From a virus, in the IMG/VR virus record IMGVR_UViG_3300023175_001379, positions 1 through 21,935 of that record: a stretch of DNA of 21,935 nt; one strand, written 5' to 3'. The notes under the pieces are model-generated. The model was not told the origin of the DNA. It saw only the letters and a list, made by a program, of their open reading frames with translations, and ran no database searches. The position numbers and the translations under genes are program-made. Shown here piece after piece: positions 3,226 to 21,370 of the stretch; the first letter of the stretch is position 1, and the number at the start of each line of letters is the position of its first letter.

Positions 3226-4692
3226 ATGCAAAATATTATCGTTGATAAAATCAATGACGTATATATTCGGATTGACGCTGATGCCTCTATTCGTAGAGAA
3301 CTTTCAGATTACTTCTCATTTGAAGTGCCTGGATATAAGTTTACACCACAGTTTCGTAATCGAGTTTGGGATGGAAAAATAAGATTATATTCTTATGCTA
3401 CAGGTCAAATGTACGTAGGACTATACCCATATCTAAAAGATTGGTGTAAAAAGAAAGATGTTCATATAGTTGAATCCAGTGATATTTTAACACGTAGCAA
3501 CGTCTCAGCCGCCGATATAGACGGTATGATTGATGAATACGATCTGCCCATTAAACCAAGAGATTATCAAATAAACGCATTTAAATTTGCCTTAGAATAT
3601 GAAAGAGGTCTTATATTATCACCGACAGCTTCTGGTAAGTCGCTTATAATCTATATGTTAGTTAGACACTATCTTAATTCAATAAACAATAATGTTTTAA
3701 TTATTGTGCCGACCACATCATTGGTTGAACAACTATATAAAGATTTTAAAGACTATGGATATGATGTAGAAACAAATGTTAGTAGAAAATATCACGGCTA
3801 TGATATTGATGAAGATAAAAGAGTAGTCATTTCAACATGGCAATCATTATATAAAATGCCTAAAAAGTTTTTTGAAGATTACGGTGCTGTTATAGGTGAT
3901 GAAGCACATTTATTTAAGGCCGTATCATTAACAAAGATAATGACAAAACTTACCGATTGTAAATATCGTATTGGTTTGACAGGTACTTTAGATGATAGTA
4001 AAACACATAAGTTAGTATTAACAGGTCTATTTGGTGTAGTTAATAAAGTGGTCTCTACTAAACAACTTATAGATAAAAAACAACTAGCAAATTTAAAAGT
4101 GGTTTGTTTAAACCTAAAATATCCTGAAACTGAATCTAAAAAAGTATATGGTGTAAAATACTTTGAAGAATTAGAATATCTTACTCAAAATACTGCTCGT
4201 AATAAATACATACGAAATCTAGCCCTAGCACTAAACGGCAATACTTTATGTTTGTTTCAGTTAGTAGAAAAACACGGTGAAATTTTATATAACTTAATCA
4301 AAGAAAAAGCAGATCCAAAACGAAAAATATTTTTTGTTTATGGTGGAACAGAAACAGATGATAGAGAAAAAATTAGAGCAATCACAGAAAAATCGGATAA
4401 CGCAATTATTGTCGCTTCTTTCGGGACGTTTAGCACTGGTATCAATATTCGTAATTTACACAACATTGTTTTTAGCAGCCCTAGTAAAAGCCCTATAAGA
4501 GTATTACAAAGTATTGGCCGTGGTTTAAGAGTTGGTGATAAGAAACAGTCAGCTACAGTCTATGATATATCTGACGATTTAACATATAAAGATAAAAAAA
4601 ACTTTACTTTAACACACTTTCAGGAAAGAGTTAATATCTATAATCGGGAGAGTTTTAACTATGAAATTCACACCGTTAGTTTAGATAAATAG
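3226..4692 (+). CDS. uvsW: UvsW superfamily 2 helicase
   Basis: This 488-residue protein (T4 UvsW 503) is a branch-migrating DNA/RNA helicase that unwinds R-loops and processes stalled forks, shifting T4 from origin-dependent to recombination-dependent replication. The N-terminal domain (about residues 1-105) carries the FRNRVWDGKIRLY segment typical of UvsW. Then come motif I SPTASGKS (132-139), motif II DEAH (225-228), motif III LTGTL (251-255) and motif VI QSIGRGLRVG (from 428). All catalytic motifs are intact. It has no Shine-Dalgarno sequence and probably depends on coupling to uvsY one base upstream. Confidence 0.96.
   Translation: MQNIIVDKINDVYIRIDADASIRRELSDYFSFEVPGYKFTPQFRNRVWDGKIRLYSYATGQMYVGLYPYLKDWCKKKDVHIVESSDILTRSNVSAADIDGMIDEYDLPIKPRDYQINAFKFALEYERGLILSPTASGKSLIIYMLVRHYLNSINNNVLIIVPTTSLVEQLYKDFKDYGYDVETNVSRKYHGYDIDEDKRVVISTWQSLYKMPKKFFEDYGAVIGDEAHLFKAVSLTKIMTKLTDCKYRIGLTGTLDDSKTHKLVLTGLFGVVNKVVSTKQLIDKKQLANLKVVCLNLKYPETESKKVYGVKYFEELEYLTQNTARNKYIRNLALALNGNTLCLFQLVEKHGEILYNLIKEKADPKRKIFFVYGGTETDDREKIRAITEKSDNAIIVASFGTFSTGINIRNLHNIVFSSPSKSPIRVLQSIGRGLRVGDKKQSATVYDISDDLTYKDKKNFTLTHFQERVNIYNRESFNYEIHTVSLDK
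4684..4691 (+). promoter_or_regulatory. Putative late promoter box (GATAAATA)
   Basis: GATAAATA overlaps the uvsW stop codon and ends exactly five bases before the ATG at 4697, the third case of this spacing in the window. The downstream gene has no Shine-Dalgarno sequence. Confidence 0.5.
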
Positions 4693-4696
4693 TTAT

Positions 4697-5179
4697 ATGC
4701 AAACCTTAGATACTCAAAATGTAAAGATTATTCGTTTGGTTTCTGGAGAAGAAATTTGTTGTAAAATAGATGGTACAACAAAAGAGCTTCCAGACAAATC
4801 CCGTTTATTAAAGATACTTAATCCAATGTTAATAAAATATATACCTCAACTAACTGACAGAGGTGTAACAGATTATATAGCATTAGTTAAGTGGGTTGGA
4901 TTTACAAATGATACAATTATTACTTTACCTATAAACAAAATTATTACTATATGTAATGCTACACCTGAATTTAACAATAGATATACTCAGATTGTAGGTA
5001 AACTTCATACTGTAAAAGAAAACCTACCAAGTTACATTGAAAGAGATTTATCTAAAGAGGAGCTTGAAGAGGAAAATAATATTGAACCAACTAGAGATTA
5101 TGATAAAGAAATAACTGATAAAAATGATATAAAAGAGTTAAGTGAATTGTTAAATATGCCTAGTAAGAAGATACACTAG
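4697..5179 (+). CDS. Conserved phage protein, possible Sm-like N-terminal domain
   Basis: This protein has 160 residues. Residues 9-95 look like a compact beta barrel: VKIIRLVSGEEICCKI, NPMLIKYIP, LVKWVGF and a final strand with PINKIITIC. The pattern of a GEE turn followed by NP and a late I..I strand recalls Sm/LSm-like folds in other marine phage proteins; I infer this from strand pattern only. The tail (about 110-160) is acidic and probably disordered. It follows uvsW behind a late-type promoter box. If the Sm-like reading is right, RNA binding is possible, but the function is unknown. Confidence 0.7.
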   Translation: MQTLDTQNVKIIRLVSGEEICCKIDGTTKELPDKSRLLKILNPMLIKYIPQLTDRGVTDYIALVKWVGFTNDTIITLPINKIITICNATPEFNNRYTQIVGKLHTVKENLPSYIERDLSKEELEEENNIEPTRDYDKEITDKNDIKELSELLNMPSKKIH

Positions 5180-5681: not shown

Positions 5682-5710
5682 TTGACAAAAACAACAAAAT
5701 ATACTATAAT
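5682..5710 (+). promoter_or_regulatory. Perfect sigma70 promoter for gp55 operon
   Basis: TTGACA (5682-5687), exactly 17 bases, then TATAAT (5705-5710). The expected start point, about seven bases on, coincides with the ATG of gp55 at 5717, and no Shine-Dalgarno sequence is present. The transcript should be leaderless or nearly so. Host RNA polymerase can read it before any phage factor exists, which suits a gene that switches on late transcription. Confidence 0.9.
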
Positions 5711-5716
5711 AATATT

Positions 5717-6268
5717 ATGACTAAAACAAGAAAAAGATCAGCACATTATGTAGATAACAAAAAGTTTCTACAGGCGATGATAGAATATAAGGACAAGTGT
5801 GATAAGGCCGAAAAAAGAAATAGAAAATCACCACCAGTTACAAATTATATTGGTGAATGTTTTTTAAAAATAGCAAATCACTTATCTTATAGACCTAATT
5901 TTATTAACTATACTTTTAGAGATGATATGATTTCTGATGGTATAGAAAACTGTTTACAATATCTTAAAAATTTTAATCCTAAGAAATCAAATAATCCATT
6001 TGCTTATTTTACACAAATCATTTACTATGCTTTTATAAGAAGAATACAAAAAGAAAAGAAGCAAACAAATATCAAGTATAGAATGATTGAACAAGGAAAT
6101 ATAGATGAGTTTTCTGTATTGCCTGGTGATACAAATAGTGATTATAAAAATCAGTTTTTAGAATTTTTAAGAAAAAATAAACCATCAACTGAAGAACAAC
6201 CAAAAGTTAATGAGATTAAAGTTAAAAAAAGAAAGAAAAGAACTTATAGCTCAGTATTAGATATATAA
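5717..6268 (+). CDS. 55: Late transcription sigma factor gp55
   Basis: At 183 residues this is almost the same length as T4 gp55 (185). Gp55 replaces sigma70 on the host core RNA polymerase and recognises the TATAAATA late promoter, activated by the gp45 clamp. The core at about residues 60-120 has the sigma region 2-like pattern: DDMISDGIENCLQYLKNFNP, then NPFAYFTQIIYYAFIRRIQK. The C-terminal tail is basic (KVKKRKKRTYSSVLDI); in T4 the C-terminus contacts gp45. It lies behind a consensus host promoter, and its stop overlaps the gp47 start (TAATG). The late boxes at 1879 and 19575 are its expected targets. Confidence 0.93.
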   Translation: MTKTRKRSAHYVDNKKFLQAMIEYKDKCDKAEKRNRKSPPVTNYIGECFLKIANHLSYRPNFINYTFRDDMISDGIENCLQYLKNFNPKKSNNPFAYFTQIIYYAFIRRIQKEKKQTNIKYRMIEQGNIDEFSVLPGDTNSDYKNQFLEFLRKNKPSTEEQPKVNEIKVKKRKKRTYSSVLDI

Positions 6269-9822: not shown

Positions 9823-10931
9823 AACCTTGGCAAAAAGGATATGAAATAGACACATTATTAGAGTGGGTTGATAAATTTAAAAACTATAATCAATATTGTC
9901 ATAGTCCATTTTTAGAAGCAAAGAAAAATACAATTGCAGGCGCTTTAAGTGAAGGACAGATAATAGAAAAGAACAACATAGTTTATTTAATTAGAACTGC
10001 TAAAACAACCTCTAAAGTAAATATGTTTAATGCAGGTCCACAAATTGCTACAGTATTAAAGGGTGATAAAGTTATACAAAAAATATCTGTTAATACAAAA
10101 TCTGAAAGTGATATTATTAATGTATTAAAAGAAATATCAGAACCTGTTTGGTGTCATGTATTTGAAGAAAATGAAATTGTAAAATCTGCTGTAGTTAAAT
10201 CAGATTTTAAAAAAATAGGTACAAAAGTAAACACGTTTAGTGATGTCATTGGAATATATTATAAAGGCAATAGAACATTTGAGTCTGTAACCGATACTGA
10301 AAATATTAATATGACAAAAACATCACTTAAATTTGATGAAAAGATTATAGATAAATTAGTAGATGAATTGCAAAAATTAAATTTAAAATATACAAATCAC
10401 AATAGTAACTATAATAAAAAACAATCTTGGCAGGCCTTATCTATTTTAGGATTTGAAAAAGACAGCAAATATGTAGATAAAAAAGCAGCCAATACAGAAA
10501 ATAGACCTCTAGTGCAAACTGATTTATATGATTTATTAGAAGGTGAAAAAAAACTATTAGGTGAATTTTTAGATAAGATACCTGGTGAATTTGATAGAGT
10601 TAGATTTATGACATTAAAACCAGGTGGTGGTGAACTTAAAAGACATACAGACCAAACAGACCCAACGTGGGGAACAACAGACGGCAAAATGGTCAGACTA
10701 CATATACCACTTAAAACAAATGAAAATGTTATATTTACATCTTGGAATAATAACGGTGAAAGAAAAAAATACAATATGAAAAAAGGTGAATGTTGGTTTT
10801 TAGATACAAGAAGACCACATACAGCAATAAACAATGGGAATGATATAAGAATACATTTAGTTGCTGATGTATGGTCAAACGATAAAGTAAGAAACATATT
10901 AAGACAAAACGAAACAATTGTCTCGCCTTGA
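9819..10931 (+). CDS. 2-oxoglutarate/Fe(II) oxygenase-like protein (AspH/cupin type) with extra N-terminal domain
   Basis: This protein has 370 residues in two parts. The C-terminal half (about 195-360) is a double-stranded beta-helix oxygenase of the aspartyl/asparaginyl hydroxylase kind. H276-x-D278 lies in KRHTDQTD and the distal metal ligand is H334 (RRPHTA). R344 ten residues later is placed to bind 2-oxoglutarate. The N-terminal 190 residues, with WCHVFEENEIV near 118-128, are not recognised and may be a separate domain. Substrate could be a protein side chain, a nucleobase or a small molecule. Its stop codon lies inside the -35 box of the next operon. Confidence 0.8.
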   Translation: MKPWQKGYEIDTLLEWVDKFKNYNQYCHSPFLEAKKNTIAGALSEGQIIEKNNIVYLIRTAKTTSKVNMFNAGPQIATVLKGDKVIQKISVNTKSESDIINVLKEISEPVWCHVFEENEIVKSAVVKSDFKKIGTKVNTFSDVIGIYYKGNRTFESVTDTENINMTKTSLKFDEKIIDKLVDELQKLNLKYTNHNSNYNKKQSWQALSILGFEKDSKYVDKKAANTENRPLVQTDLYDLLEGEKKLLGEFLDKIPGEFDRVRFMTLKPGGGELKRHTDQTDPTWGTTDGKMVRLHIPLKTNENVIFTSWNNNGERKKYNMKKGECWFLDTRRPHTAINNGNDIRIHLVADVWSNDKVRNILRQNETIVSP

Positions 10932-10956
10932 CATTTTCACTATAATATAGTATAAT
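10928..10956 (+). promoter_or_regulatory. Perfect sigma70 promoter for the modification operon
   Basis: TTGACA (10928-10933), 17 bases, TATAAT (10951-10956). The ATG of the first operon gene is at 10964, eight bases after the -10 box, and no Shine-Dalgarno sequence is present, so the mRNA should be essentially leaderless. The -35 box overlaps the stop codon of the upstream oxygenase gene. Confidence 0.9.
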
Positions 10957-10963
10957 ATATACT

Positions 10964-11779
10964 ATGAAACTAAACACACCAGTTGAAGAATATACACTAA
11001 AAGGTAAAAAGGTACTTGTAAAAAGAGATGACCTTGTTGGAGATAATAACGTATTACCACCTTGGGGTAAGATTACTGGTATAGACGCATTACTTGAAAA
11101 ACATATTAATCCTAAATATCCATTAATACATTTAGCAGTAAATGGTTCTTGGTCTGGTTGGGCATTATCTGAATTATGTAAAAGACGAGGTATAAAATTT
11201 ATCTATGCCTATCCACCATCAAAAACATATTCACAATTTATATTAGATAAAGCAAAAGCAAATAAATGTGAGTTTTTAGAACTTAAACCAAATATGATGG
11301 CAATACTTTATAATAGAGTTAAAAAATATGCAAAAGAAAATGATATACAAATGTTACCTTATGCGTTTGACCATGGAGATTACAGAAACGATTTAAAGTT
11401 AAGAGCAGAAAAAACTTTTAAAGAACATTTAGTAGACCATTTAGTTATATCAGCAGGTTCAGGTGTAACTTGTTCTGGTATTATCGAAGCATTTTCTCCA
11501 GGTAGTGATTTGTTTTCTAATTCACAAAAACAAGCACACGTTATTACAGTTTCAAATATATCAACAATAGATAGTAAGTTTAAAAAAGATTATAATATGA
11601 CCTCTGATTCTATTCACATATATAAAACAAAGTATGCTTTTGAAGATATGATGACAGATTATGAAGTACCTTTTCCTTGTAATGGTACTTGGGATAGAAA
11701 AGCGTGGTGGTGGTTAGAACAAAACATAGAACAACTTGAAGGTGATATAATGTTTTGGAATATAGGTGGTAATATATGA
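10964..11779 (+). CDS. PLP-dependent enzyme, ACC deaminase/D-cysteine desulfhydrase-like (fold type II)
   Basis: This protein has 271 residues; family members usually have 320-340. The start TPVEEYT...VLVKRDDL (residues 5-24) matches the ACC deaminase/D-cysteine desulfhydrase opening. The family then has GGNK with the PLP lysine; here the stretch is PPWGK with K36 as candidate Schiff-base lysine. A Gly/Ser-rich phosphate-binding loop SAGSGVTCSG lies at 163-172. Related enzymes cleave ammonia or sulfide from amino acids to give 2-oxoacids. The substitution around the lysine and the short length suggest an altered substrate. The stop overlaps the next start (ATGA). Confidence 0.75.
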   Translation: MKLNTPVEEYTLKGKKVLVKRDDLVGDNNVLPPWGKITGIDALLEKHINPKYPLIHLAVNGSWSGWALSELCKRRGIKFIYAYPPSKTYSQFILDKAKANKCEFLELKPNMMAILYNRVKKYAKENDIQMLPYAFDHGDYRNDLKLRAEKTFKEHLVDHLVISAGSGVTCSGIIEAFSPGSDLFSNSQKQAHVITVSNISTIDSKFKKDYNMTSDSIHIYKTKYAFEDMMTDYEVPFPCNGTWDRKAWWWLEQNIEQLEGDIMFWNIGGNI

Positions 11780-18146: not shown

Positions 18147-18186
18147 CCTATTGAGTAGTCAAAAATCTATCCATAGTGTAAGTCCG

Positions 18187-18220
18187 CTTGTGGGGGTTGT
18201 GCCCCACAAGTTAAACTTTT
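18187..18220 (+). terminator. Stable hairpin terminator after cobS-like gene
   Basis: CTTGTGGGG (18187-18195) pairs perfectly with CCCCACAAG (18202-18210) around GTTGTG, followed by TTAAACTTTTT. The GC content is striking for this genome. The T tract is interrupted, so it may be a terminator, an attenuator or an mRNA-stabilising hairpin for the short gene and bS21 gene downstream. Confidence 0.75.
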
Positions 18221-18232
18221 TACAGGAGAATA

Positions 18233-18559
18233 ATGAGTAATTTTAAAGATAACAGTGGTTTAGAAAAAATAAAACCAAAAATGTCACAAGAAGAACGTGA
18301 TAAATTAATGAAAAAGTTTTTAGAAAAAGGTGGCAAAATACAAAAGTTAAAAGCAGGTTATCCTACTAATGTAGGTAGTTTAGATAGGTCTAAGAAACCT
18401 GCCTATACAAAAGAAGATATTGAAAAAGGTATAACTGGTAAAGCACCAAGACCTGATTATAAGACTTATAAAAAAGGTTCGTACCATGACTTTGATGTGG
18501 GTGGTGATAAACCACCTGTATGGGAAAAACAACCAAAAAATGAGATGGGAGGTAAATAG
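18233..18559 (+). CDS. Small basic hypothetical protein
   Basis: This 108-residue Lys-rich protein has a helical N-terminal third (SQEERDKLMKKFLEKGGKIQ) and a Gly/Pro/Tyr-rich, probably disordered rest. AGGAG lies just before the ATG. It comes three bases before the bS21 start, so the two are coupled. No family is recognised. The charge and its pairing with a ribosomal protein make RNA or ribosome binding a reasonable guess, nothing more. Confidence 0.7.
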   Translation: MSNFKDNSGLEKIKPKMSQEERDKLMKKFLEKGGKIQKLKAGYPTNVGSLDRSKKPAYTKEDIEKGITGKAPRPDYKTYKKGSYHDFDVGGDKPPVWEKQPKNEMGGK

Positions 18560-18562
18560 TTA

Positions 18563-18805
18563 GTGTCAATTACAGTAGAAGTAAGAGGTGGCAATTTAGA
18601 AAAGGCTTTGCGTGTACTTAAAAAGAAAGTACAAAAAGCAGGTATTATCAAACAGATAAGAGATAAAAAATACTTTATGAAACCGTCTGAAATCAAACGT
18701 GAAAAGGCCAAAGAACGATCTAAGATTATTAGAAAAGCACAAAAAGCTAATGATGAAATTTTAGGATATCGTTGGGTAAAAGGCGTAAAAGTAAAGAAAA
18801 TATAG
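18563..18805 (+). CDS. rpsU: Ribosomal protein bS21 (phage-encoded)
   Basis: This 80-residue protein opens ITVEVRGGNLEKALRVLKKK, the near-invariant start of bacterial 30S protein bS21, followed by VQKAGI and the basic helical region KREKAKERSKIIRKAQKAN. The C-terminal GYRWVKGVKVKKI extends beyond short bS21 forms. The start is GTG with GGGAGG (18547-18552) at good spacing. bS21 sits by the anti-Shine-Dalgarno end of 16S rRNA and affects initiation. Viral bS21 genes, including in pelagiphages, are known from published surveys. It may replace host bS21 and favour phage messages. Confidence 0.93.
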   Translation: MSITVEVRGGNLEKALRVLKKKVQKAGIIKQIRDKKYFMKPSEIKREKAKERSKIIRKAQKANDEILGYRWVKGVKVKKI

Positions 18806-18847
18806 GAATTCTATGCCGTCTGTGTTGAATGATTATATATATTATTA

Positions 18848-18986
18848 CTACAAGGCTATTCGTAAGACCTTGTAGAGGTATAGATAGGTTAGGGTAGTGC
18901 CTTGATTTTAATCTAAAACTACCCATAAAAAACGGTGACGTTTGGTAGTTTAACTCCGTGACAAAACGAAACTACCATTTTATTTT
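18848..18986 (+). other. Non-coding spacer with three inverted repeats
   Basis: The 287-base gap 18806-19092 has no convincing gene. It holds three hairpins: CTACAAGG (18848-18855) with CCTTGTAG (18868-18875); GGGTAGT (18892-18898) with ACTACCC (18918-18924); and GGTAGTTT (18944-18951) with AAACTACC (18969-18976), followed by ATTTTATTTTAT. The last looks like a terminator for the bS21 operon. The GGTAG/CTACC arms can also pair between hairpins 2 and 3, so a structured RNA with alternative folds is possible. No tRNA features were found. Confidence 0.6.
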
Positions 18987-18996
18987 ATAAGAAGGG

Positions 18997-19026
18997 TTGA
19001 CATTTCACAAATCGTTCTTATATAAA
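18997..19026 (+). promoter_or_regulatory. Hsp20 promoter, sigma70 boxes merged with a late box
   Basis: TTGACA (18997-19002) is followed at 18 bases by TATAAA (19021-19026). The same bases form TATAAATA (19021-19028), the T4-type late element. The gene could be read by host sigma early and by gp55 late. The start point near 19033 leaves a leader of about 60 bases. Confidence 0.75.
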
Positions 19027-19028
19027 TA

Positions 19029-19089
19029 ATATTGAATATGCCAAATGGGTATTCGATATAAAGATAACTTTGCTTAAACAAGGAGGTTA
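19029..19089 (+). promoter_or_regulatory. Hsp20 5' leader, candidate RNA thermometer
   Basis: ATATTGAATA (19029-19038) can pair with TATTCGATAT (19050-19059), partly upstream of the predicted RNA start. TAACTTT (19065-19071) can pair with GAGGTTA (19083-19089) through seven pairs, two of them G-U, covering the Shine-Dalgarno core AGGAGG (19081-19086). A weak wobble-rich stem over the ribosome site before a heat-shock gene is the arrangement of ROSE/fourU-type thermometers. This is inferred by hand pairing. Confidence 0.45.
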
Positions 19090-19092
19090 ATT

Positions 19093-19536
19093 ATGACTAA
19101 TAAAGCATTATCTATTTTCAATCAATTAAGACCACTAACTGTAGGATTTGATGACACGTTCAGACATTTTGAATCAATGTTTGATCATCAGTTAGATCAT
19201 ATCCAAACTACAGCTTTTCCTTATTACAATATAGTAAAACAGGATAAGAATAAGTACGATATTGAAATCGCACTTGCTGGTTATAATAAAAAAGATATAA
19301 ACATCGACCTTGAGGATGGTGTTTTATCTATTGAGTCTAAAAAAGACGAAAAGGAAGATACTAAAGATGGAGAAGTAATCCATAAAGGTATCGCTAAAAG
19401 ATACTTTAAAAAATCTTTTACAATCGCTGAAGACGTTGAAGTTAAAGGCGCTGAACTAAAAGACGGCTTGTTAAGGGTGTCTTTAGAGAGAATAGTTCCA
19501 GAACATAAAAAGCCTAGAACTATCTCAATCAAATAA
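19093..19536 (+). CDS. hsp20: Small heat shock protein Hsp20 (IbpA-like)
   Basis: This 147-residue ATP-independent chaperone holds unfolding proteins. The N-terminal region (about 1-38) has the IbpA-like TVGFDDTFRHFESMF. The alpha-crystallin domain runs about 39-140, with YDIEIALAGYNKKDI and the hallmark LKDGLLRVSL near the end. The C-terminal ISI (I-x-I) tail motif mediates oligomer assembly. Hsp20 is a common gene of marine T4-like phages and is thought to protect folding of virion proteins or host machinery during infection. AAGGAGGT precedes the ATG. Confidence 0.95.
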   Translation: MTNKALSIFNQLRPLTVGFDDTFRHFESMFDHQLDHIQTTAFPYYNIVKQDKNKYDIEIALAGYNKKDINIDLEDGVLSIESKKDEKEDTKDGEVIHKGIAKRYFKKSFTIAEDVEVKGAELKDGLLRVSLERIVPEHKKPRTISIK

Positions 19537-19544
19537 TAAAACCA

Positions 19545-19577
19545 ATATCTGGTATGTTTTAAACGCATACCAGATAT
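19545..19577 (+). terminator. 12-bp perfect hairpin after hsp20, overlapping a late promoter
   Basis: ATATCTGGTATG (19545-19556) pairs perfectly with CATACCAGATAT (19566-19577) around a nine-base loop, nine bases after the hsp20 stop. No T tract follows on this strand, so it is more likely an RNA 3'-end protector or attenuator than a classical terminator. Its right arm shares bases 19575-19577 with the TATAAATA box. Confidence 0.6.
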
Positions 19578-19582
19578 AAATA
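19575..19582 (+). promoter_or_regulatory. T4-type late promoter (TATAAATACTTT)
   Basis: TATAAATACTTT is almost the full T4 late consensus (TATAAATACTATT). The start point should fall near 19588-19590, at the first base of the glutamine-riboswitch-like fold. This is the best late promoter in the window. Confidence 0.8.
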
Positions 19583-19588
19583 CTTTAT

Positions 19589-19642
19589 ATCGTTCATCTT
19601 TTTAAAAGACGGAAGTAGGCATATGCCGAAGGAACGCACCTA
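19589..19642 (+). ncRNA. Glutamine riboswitch (glnA / Downstream-peptide type)
   Basis: The conserved segments of the glutamine aptamer are present in order: CGTTCATC (19591-19598), GACGGAAGTAGG (19608-19619) and CCGAAGGAACGCACC (19626-19640). P1 is CGTTC/GAACG (19591-19595 with 19632-19636), P2 is TCTTT/AAAGA (19597-19601 with 19605-19609) and P3 is GGC/GCC around ATAT (19618-19627). Downstream CCTA (19639-19642) can pair with TAGG (19649-19652), the edge of the Shine-Dalgarno sequence, a plausible switch element. RNAs of this class precede glutamine-metabolism genes or short peptides in cyanobacteria, cyanophages and marine metagenomes. I identified it from memory of the consensus; glnA versus Downstream-peptide subclass is not settled. 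Confidence 0.88.
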
Positions 19643-20404: not shown

Positions 20405-20433
20405 TTGACTAACCTATATGTTTGTGATATAAT
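20405..20433 (+). promoter_or_regulatory. sigma70 promoter for DUF3310-gp45-gp44 genes
   Basis: TTGACT (20405-20410), 17 bases, TATAAT (20428-20433). The ATG at 20440 is seven bases after the -10 box with no Shine-Dalgarno sequence, predicting a leaderless mRNA. The 16 bases TATAATAATATTATGA spanning -10 box to start codon are identical to those at gp55 (5705-5720). Confidence 0.88.
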
Positions 20434-20439
20434 AATATT

Positions 20440-20703
20440 ATGAAATACAATGAAGATAAAATATGTAAAGAGATTTTAGATTATATAAAATCTACATATG
20501 GTCAACATTACTCATCTGGTAAAGATGGTATTCAAACTTTAGATTTATTAAAGTCTATTGGTATTAAAAGTGATTTTTGCCAAGCCAACGCAATTAAATA
20601 TTTGTCTAGGTATGGTAGAAAAAATGGTTATAATCGTAAAGACTTGTTAAAAGCAATTCATTATGTTATACTATTATTAAATAATGATAAGGAGAAAATA
20701 TAA
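20440..20703 (+). CDS. DUF3310-type protein
   Basis: This 87-residue protein carries SSGKDGIQTLDLLKSIGI, then FCQANAIKYLSRYGRKNGYNRKDLLKAIHYVILLL, the full signature of the DUF3310 phage family, sometimes labelled nucleotide kinase without proof. The family is common next to phage DNA-replication and nucleotide-metabolism genes. Its place directly before the sliding clamp fits a replication-linked role. It heads the replisome transcript and should be translated from a leaderless mRNA. Confidence 0.88.
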   Translation: MKYNEDKICKEILDYIKSTYGQHYSSGKDGIQTLDLLKSIGIKSDFCQANAIKYLSRYGRKNGYNRKDLLKAIHYVILLLNNDKEKI

Positions 20704-20704
20704 T

Positions 20705-21370
20705 ATGAAAATAAGTGATAATACAATTAGTATATTGAGAAATTTCTCAGATATTAATGCTAACATTTTGTTTACACCTGGTAAAACATTAAGTACAATG
20801 TCAACTATGAAAAACATTATGGCAAAGGCAGACGTTGAGGAAGAGTTTGAAACAGAATTTGGCATATACGATTTGCCAGAATTTTTAAGAGCAGTAGATT
20901 CTTTTCAACAACCAGTTTTAAAGTTTAATGGTTCTGCTAATTTAAAAATACAAGATGAAAAAACAACATTATCAGCTAGATATGCGTTTGCTGATAAATC
21001 TACATTAAGATATCCATCTAAACAAATATCAATGCCAGATAAGACAGTTACATTCACACTAAACAATAGTGATTATGAATCTGTTAAAAAATTATATACA
21101 AATTTAAGTCTGCCTGATATTGCATTTAAAGGTGAAAAAGGCAAAATTAAATTAGTTGCTTTAGATAAAAAGAATAGCAACTCAAACGAATCATCAGTTA
21201 CAATAGGTGAAACGGATTTAGAGTTTACTGCATATGTTAAGGCTGAGAATATGAAAATTATTCCTGGCGATTATGATGTTGCTTTATCAAAGGCAAAGAT
21301 TGCTCACTTCATAAACAAAAAGGTTAAAGTACAATATTGGATTGCTTTAGAAGCAGACTCAACATTTTAA
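20705..21370 (+). CDS. 45: Sliding clamp gp45
   Basis: This 221-residue protein (T4 gp45 228) is the trimeric ring that tethers the gp43 polymerase to DNA and, in T4, activates gp55-dependent late promoters. It opens MKISDNTISILRNFSDINAN like T4 (MKLSKDTTALLKNFATINSG). It keeps the IYDLPEFL segment and the ENMKIIPGDYDVALSKAKI pattern, and ends with ALEADST as T4 does. I chose the ATG at 20705 because AAGGAG (20689-20694) precedes it; an in-frame ATG at 20684 would bury that site. It follows the DUF3310 stop by one base. Confidence 0.95.
   Translation: MKISDNTISILRNFSDINANILFTPGKTLSTMSTMKNIMAKADVEEEFETEFGIYDLPEFLRAVDSFQQPVLKFNGSANLKIQDEKTTLSARYAFADKSTLRYPSKQISMPDKTVTFTLNNSDYESVKKLYTNLSLPDIAFKGEKGKIKLVALDKKNSNSNESSVTIGETDLEFTAYVKAENMKIIPGDYDVALSKAKIAHFINKKVKVQYWIALEADSTF

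Follow-up and report, generated by a model that had tools for sequence, protein, structure and literature searches.

The bS21 locus described here belongs to a SAR11-type T4-like phage, and in it the gene for ribosomal protein bS21 is followed directly by a structured RNA, H1. The RNA represents a previously uncatalogued family, supported by covariation and new to Rfam 15, and it travels with bS21 from virus to virus; within the pelagimyophage group, bS21 nearly always has this RNA at its side. The best explanation of the locus as a whole is that phage bS21 would redirect translation initiation and that a late RNA is inherited with it; we give this explanation a probability of about 0.45. SAR11 phages are among the ocean's most abundant biological entities, and the bS21-linked RNA and a predicted large-scale use of leaderless messages offer two handles on why many of them carry bS21. 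The phage bS21 gene itself is already known and is core to pelagimyophages, in which S21 has been said to belong to no gene cluster (PMC7029224).

The bS21 gene and its neighborhood

The whole stretch analyzed, here called the window, is the 21.9-kb IMG/VR virus record IMGVR_UViG_3300023175_001379. We assign the genome to the pelagimyophage type on the basis of T4-like gene neighbors and a major capsid protein that shares 83% identity with that of Pelagibacter phage Mosig. The gene and its surroundings include the following features.

18547-18553, + strand: Shine-Dalgarno (SD) site of bS21, GGGAGGT, within the 3' end of the preceding ORF (duplex with the anti-SD, -11.6 kcal/mol)
18563-18805, + strand: bS21 coding sequence, 80 aa, GTG start (PF01165, phrog_21469, AlphaFold model)
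18749-18802, + strand: C-terminal tail of bS21, residues 63-80, with a predicted beta-hairpin at 69-78 (dN/dS, comparison, model)
19093-19536, + strand: Hsp20 gene, the usual neighbor 3' of the RNA (PF00011, E 1.3e-17)

An earlier note on this DNA had read 18563-18805 as a complete bS21 with a longer C-terminus, and both parts of that description hold. The protein matches Ribosomal_S21 (PF01165) over profile positions 1-52 of 55 (E 7.7e-17; 61.2 bits against a curated cut-off of 27) as well as phrog_21469 (E 3e-11), and the tail, NDExLGYxWVKGxKVKKI (16-18 aa), is conserved in 80-aa phage homologs. The AlphaFold model (mean pLDDT 79) has helices at 12-26, 28-36, and 41-66, as expected for bS21, and places K40-P41-S42 (the KPS motif) at a helix junction; in the tail, a beta-hairpin is predicted with moderate confidence. 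Across 51 distinct 80-aa phage genes, dN/dS is 0.11 in the tail versus 0.14 in the core, and 0.08 in the N-terminal region, so that core and tail are both under purifying selection. Most of the 80-aa phage homologs retain an SD site of the GGGAGGT type. The window bS21 is a putative working paralog, predicted to be strongly translated from its own SD site.

The earlier note had also proposed a comparison of phage and host bS21. Once made, it showed that Pelagibacteraceae proteins are shorter by ∼13-14 C-terminal residues. The bS21s of Mosig and HTVC008M end similarly early and lack the 18-residue tail of the window protein. The window phage has K54, and the aromatic residue at this position, the anti-SD-blocking Tyr54 of Bacteroidota bS21, which stacks on the 16S tail, is absent; the alignment to 7jil chain z is ungapped over residues 8-53, and K54 is the next phage residue. 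Phage bS21s cluster apart from those of Pelagibacteraceae in a tree made from few columns and with weak resolution. A recent capture of bS21 from a host is unsupported by this tree, and the same separation makes gene and RNA look like a pair of long standing in phages.

The protein family is common to the window, HTVC008M, Mosig, and the Methylophilales phage Melnitz; bS21 has been described in the latter two (PMC9004378). Mosig and HTVC008M also share the neighborhood, with an AAA/CobS-like gene upstream of bS21 and Hsp20 and gp45/gp44 downstream, as in the window. In Mosig, other genes separate Hsp20 from the bS21 locus by ∼1.5 kb. In the phage collections searched, bS21 is also present in Pseudomonas jumbo phages and in siphophages Aegir and Kolga. 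Between the AAA/CobS-like gene and the ORF 5' of bS21, the window has a strong terminator-like hairpin (18186-18211; 10 bp and a T tail), an indication that the bS21 region is transcribed as a unit of its own.

A structured RNA on the 3' side of bS21

The RNA and the elements around it are located as follows.

18806-18884, + strand: structured RNA H1, with helices P1 and P2 and loop GGC-N-R-YYCRUAAG-N-CC (covariation, model R1)
18810-18817, + strand: P1 5' strand, TCTATGCC (covariation)
18834-18846, + strand: box TATATATATTATT, where many relatives have the T4-type late promoter TATAAATA (alignments; sole copy in the window)
18848-18855, + strand: P2 5' strand, CTACAAGG (covariation)
18868-18875, + strand: P2 3' strand, CCTTGTAG (covariation)
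18877-18884, + strand: P1 3' strand, GGTATAGA (covariation)
18932-18976, + strand: H-type pseudoknot, S1 ACGG/CCGT and S2 GGTAGTTT/AAACTACC (search of regions versus shuffles)
19022-19028, + strand: ATAAATA box, late-promoter-like, ahead of Hsp20 (sequence)

H1 begins at the base right after the bS21 stop codon, P1 starts 4 nt past the stop, and P1 and P2 have 8 bp each. The window RNA matches covariance model R1 with an E of 2.5e-20, and the stretch 18806-18990 folds with a z of -3.4. All but one of 63 distinct sequences downstream of bS21 have the conserved element; the exception, HTVC008M, has a diverged form of the RNA farther downstream. Compensatory changes occur at 6 pairs in the first 42 sequences, in an alignment that was not fitted to the model. 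With an extended covariance model and 54 distinct sequences they occur at 12 of 16 pairs, counts that lean toward the model since the alignments were fitted to it but that agree in direction with the unfitted alignment. Covariation reached 97 cells versus 23.7 in shuffles (0 of 500 equally high) and 192 versus 53 in an independent sample, and the signal was lost when partners were shifted by 1-3 columns. Neither the window element nor two divergent members matched any Rfam 15 family at gathering score or with a credible E-value, and the RNA is undescribed in the literature searched on bS21 of HTVC008M, Mosig, and Melnitz.

Several other identities for the element were rejected. A coding region is inconsistent with element lengths that vary freely, regardless of codons. 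Antisense action of the loop on start codons, by pairing of UUCRUAAG with CUUAUGAA, fails because CUUAUG occurs at essentially no gene starts in the window, Mosig, or HTVC008M. Resemblance of YUCRUAA to CAU/CGU anticodon loops is a curiosity only, given that purine 35 varies and the stem is non-canonical. In HTVC008M-type loci (L377, L413, L428, and others), a second hairpin lies 3' of P2; its loop repeats CUCGUAA in some and reads GAGGUAGAGUGUCUUCCGCAAAGACAC in others.

Linkage between the RNA and bS21 was evident in both directions of search. Two scans of IMG/VR used the RNA only, as its core alone and then as a looser core, with parts of the loop fixed by design and with counts taken among the matches listed. 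In the first, 59 of 62 listed sequences had the end of bS21 10-26 nt upstream; of the other three, L259 is a match by chance, L226 is a contig that stops exactly where bS21 ends, and L275 is a variant with only a bS21 fragment, farther upstream. In the second, which listed 83 contexts, bS21 was found at 72 of 72 listed loci with sufficient upstream sequence, and Hsp20 was downstream of the RNA at 72 of 83. A scan by bS21 alone, the unbiased direction, recovered the RNA at 64 of 80 loci. In every case it shared the strand of bS21 and lay downstream, either directly 3' of bS21 or past one small ORF (47 of the 64 matches with E 0.01 or better). The loop GGC-NN-YTCRTAAG-N-CC reappeared in these loci, where it had not been imposed. 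In most phages of the HTVC008M type (e.g., L376 and L381), the small ORF that separates bS21 from the RNA resembles HTVC008M AGE60444 (MGRxKxANSTKFLNA..).

No credible copy of the RNA was found in 60 Pelagibacter-family genomes, in which two weak matches lacked the loop motif, and borrowing of the RNA from the host was rejected on this basis. Melnitz, Syn9, T4, and Kolga likewise gave no credible copy. Melnitz and Kolga carry bS21 elsewhere, so phage bS21 can function without the RNA, which counts against the best explanation.

A WATAWATA box precedes P2. In many relatives it reads TATAAATAGTA, the late-promoter sequence, a few nt from P2; in the clade of the window it reads TATATATATT. With TATATATA instead of TATAAATA, the putative late promoter inside the RNA is expected to be weaker in this clade. 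After H1, an H-type pseudoknot is present in 105 of 173 regions versus 17 of 1,730 shuffles, with 33 different, covarying S2 stems. An intrinsic terminator had been considered for this element, but T's follow the window copy and not that of most relatives, and the pseudoknot fits better. At 19022-19060 of the window and in L413, L428, and L487, Hsp20 seems to have its own late box and then a short GTACGCCATAATGGGTAC-like hairpin near the expected transcription start.

Leader types and promoter geometry

The mixed leader types that the earlier note reported were borne out by SD energies at 28 window starts, with strong SD sites at some genes and SD-less starts at others. With the general anti-SD sequence, used because 16S rRNA is missing from the host genome examined, SD energies reach -6 kcal/mol or better at 11 of the 28 starts and fall short of -3.5 kcal/mol at another 11. 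The strongest are those of Hsp20 (-12.4 kcal/mol), gp44 (-12.3 kcal/mol), and bS21; values for gp55, the phrog_459 peptidase, and others are above 0. A promoter box lies 5-7 nt 5' of the ATG at seven SD-less starts (1892, 2130, 4697, 5717, 10964, 14727, and 20440), and at four of these (5717, 10964, 14727, and 20440) it is a TATAAT-like box 6-7 nt from the ATG. Six such arrangements are the following.

1880-1894, + strand: ATAAATA-5 nt-ATG, start of ORF 1892, predicted to be leaderless (box spacing)
2118-2132, + strand: ATAAATA-5 nt-ATG, start of ORF 2130 (tail tube/completion type), predicted to be leaderless (box spacing)
4685-4699, + strand: ATAAATA-5 nt-ATG, start of ORF 4697, predicted to be leaderless (box spacing)
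5682-5719, + strand: TTGACA-17-TATAAT-6-ATG, start, predicted to be leaderless, of the gene at the position of late sigma factor gp55 (boxes, SD energy)
10928-10966, + strand: TTGACA-17-TATAAT-7-ATG, start of ORF 10964, predicted to be leaderless or nearly so (boxes)
20428-20442, + strand: TATAAT-6-ATG, with TTGACT 17 nt upstream, start of DUF3310 ORF 20440, predicted to be leaderless (boxes, SD energy)

ATAAATA exactly 5 nt (three starts) or TATAAT exactly 6 nt (two starts) before the ATG is found at 5 of 25 gene starts versus 0 of 491 other window ATGs (p 2e-7, a post hoc value). Across four pelagimyophage records, the gap in ATAAATA-N(2-9)-ATG is exactly 5 in 35 of 64 cases, where 1/8 is expected; in T4 and Syn9 together it is 5 in 3 of 13. 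Under T4 late and sigma-70 promoter geometry, such gaps would make the A of AUG the first transcribed base. Transcripts of SD-less genes with a box 5-7 nt before the ATG should therefore begin at AUG, and leaderless messages are predicted, apparently on a large scale, in pelagimyophage genomes. The T4 late-promoter box TATAAATA occurs identically at many pelagimyophage genes, as it does 5' of P2 in many relatives of the RNA. In the T4 genes examined, however, the late box is 12-35 nt upstream, whereas the pelagimyophage box is 5 nt from the ATG and its transcripts would be leaderless. Syn9, a T4-like cyanophage, has SD-less genes without the ATAAATA-5-ATG geometry. Earlier work on pelagimyophages reported late-promoter prediction to be unsuccessful and none found (PMC7029224); the geometry adds candidates there.

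Readings of the locus and minor elements downstream

From sequence and comparison, we favor reading H1 as a separate late phage RNA, or a late leader, that is co-inherited with bS21. According to the best explanation, phage bS21 most likely takes the place of host bS21, which is only loosely bound to 30S subunits. This step is proposed by analogy with HTVC008M, whose bS21 is built into 70S ribosomes of E. coli with GFP synthesis at ∼5% of normal (PMC6375957). The exchanged protein would then bias initiation toward phage messages of two classes, strong-SD and leaderless. Transcription of the RNA most likely starts near P2 and yields either an independent late transcript or a late leader, because many relatives have the late box a few nt 5' of P2; such a start would leave the conserved P1 5' strand upstream, which counts against it, as does the weaker box in the clade of the window. 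The RNA probably acts in the same late reprogramming, on translation or on mRNA stability. The hypothesis that phage bS21 favors phage messages is already published (PMC6375957, PMC9723584). It was likewise proposed, for late infection, in freshwater Bacteroidetes phages that carry bS21 with late expression (PMC9723584), but these have other hosts and another gene context, and the window bS21 lacks the aromatic residue 54.

Hsp20 is also a common neighbor of the RNA, which could therefore belong functionally to Hsp20. In a related reading, the RNA works only in cis, as the 5'-terminal hairpin (together with the pseudoknot) of a late leader that protects bS21-Hsp20 mRNA from decay and has no special tie to bS21. 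The late box near P2 in many relatives, the high frequency of Hsp20 on the 3' side (72 of 83 listed loci), and the late box that Hsp20 itself has in the window and several relatives, with what looks like a further 5' hairpin after it, all fit this reading, which we regard as possible. Yet a generic stabilizer has no need of an invariant loop, the motif occurs once per genome instead of at every late start, and the distance of Hsp20 from the locus in Mosig also speaks against this reading. Binding of phage bS21 to P1/P2 in the 3' UTR of its gene, whether for autoregulation or within an RNP, would account for the near-exclusive co-occurrence and for the start of P1 only 4 nt past the stop in the window. 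The OLE RNA-bS21 complex of Halalkalibacterium likewise pairs a structured non-coding RNA with bS21 (PMC12054373) and is a precedent. OLE RNA, however, is ∼600 nt, cellular, and without a sequence relation to the phage RNA in an Rfam search; the anti-SD mimic CCUCCU of its bS21 site was not seen in the phage RNA, and a small ORF intervenes between bS21 and the RNA in many relatives. We consider bS21 binding a serious rival, but a rather unlikely one.

The earlier note had gone on to suggest that phage bS21 could specifically shift which messages ribosomes prefer, leadered or leaderless. Three systems make the idea plausible: E. coli 61S ribosomes without bS1 and bS21 favor leaderless mRNA (PMC12186496), Flavobacterium ribosomes without bS21 favor strong SD sites (PMC9976891), and the HTVC008M protein is able to join E. 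coli ribosomes (PMC6375957). SD-led and leaderless classes are moreover both predicted in one genome. But Syn9, in which bS21 was not looked for, has SD-less genes without the box-ATG geometry, and the window protein has Lys in place of the anti-SD-blocking Tyr54. Overall, so specific an effect is plausible but not likely. The ∼5% GFP of ribosomes with HTVC008M bS21 could reflect inhibition rather than redirection and counts against the best explanation. Pure inhibition, in which phage bS21 would stop host initiation without redirecting ribosomes, is rather improbable: the authors note that species incompatibility may account for the low GFP of the reconstituted E. coli system (PMC6375957), late phage proteins still have to be made, and selection on the N-terminal region is strongly purifying (dN/dS 0.08). 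The most elaborate form of redirection is a long shot. It would be a two-part pelagimyophage translation switch, in which bS21 replaces the host protein and the partner RNA of the same locus acts on ribosomes or on bS21, jointly steering ribosomes between strong-SD and leaderless late messages.

Other elements were noted downstream of bS21. The gp45 clamp gene probably starts at 20705 and not at the first ATG of the frame, 20684; the later start is served by an AGGAGG site and agrees with the N-terminus of T4 gp45. The stretch 19576-19640, ahead of a 51-aa ORF, holds a glutamine riboswitch (RF01739, E 1.9e-13); an ATAAATA box is at 19576-19582, the riboswitch starts a few bases later, and the arrangement resembles a late-transcript start. 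In L019, L042, and L082, a third conserved stretch lies 3' of bS21, ATTGGTCTT..TAGGCT.AGTAAGAT, and is possibly another RNA element.
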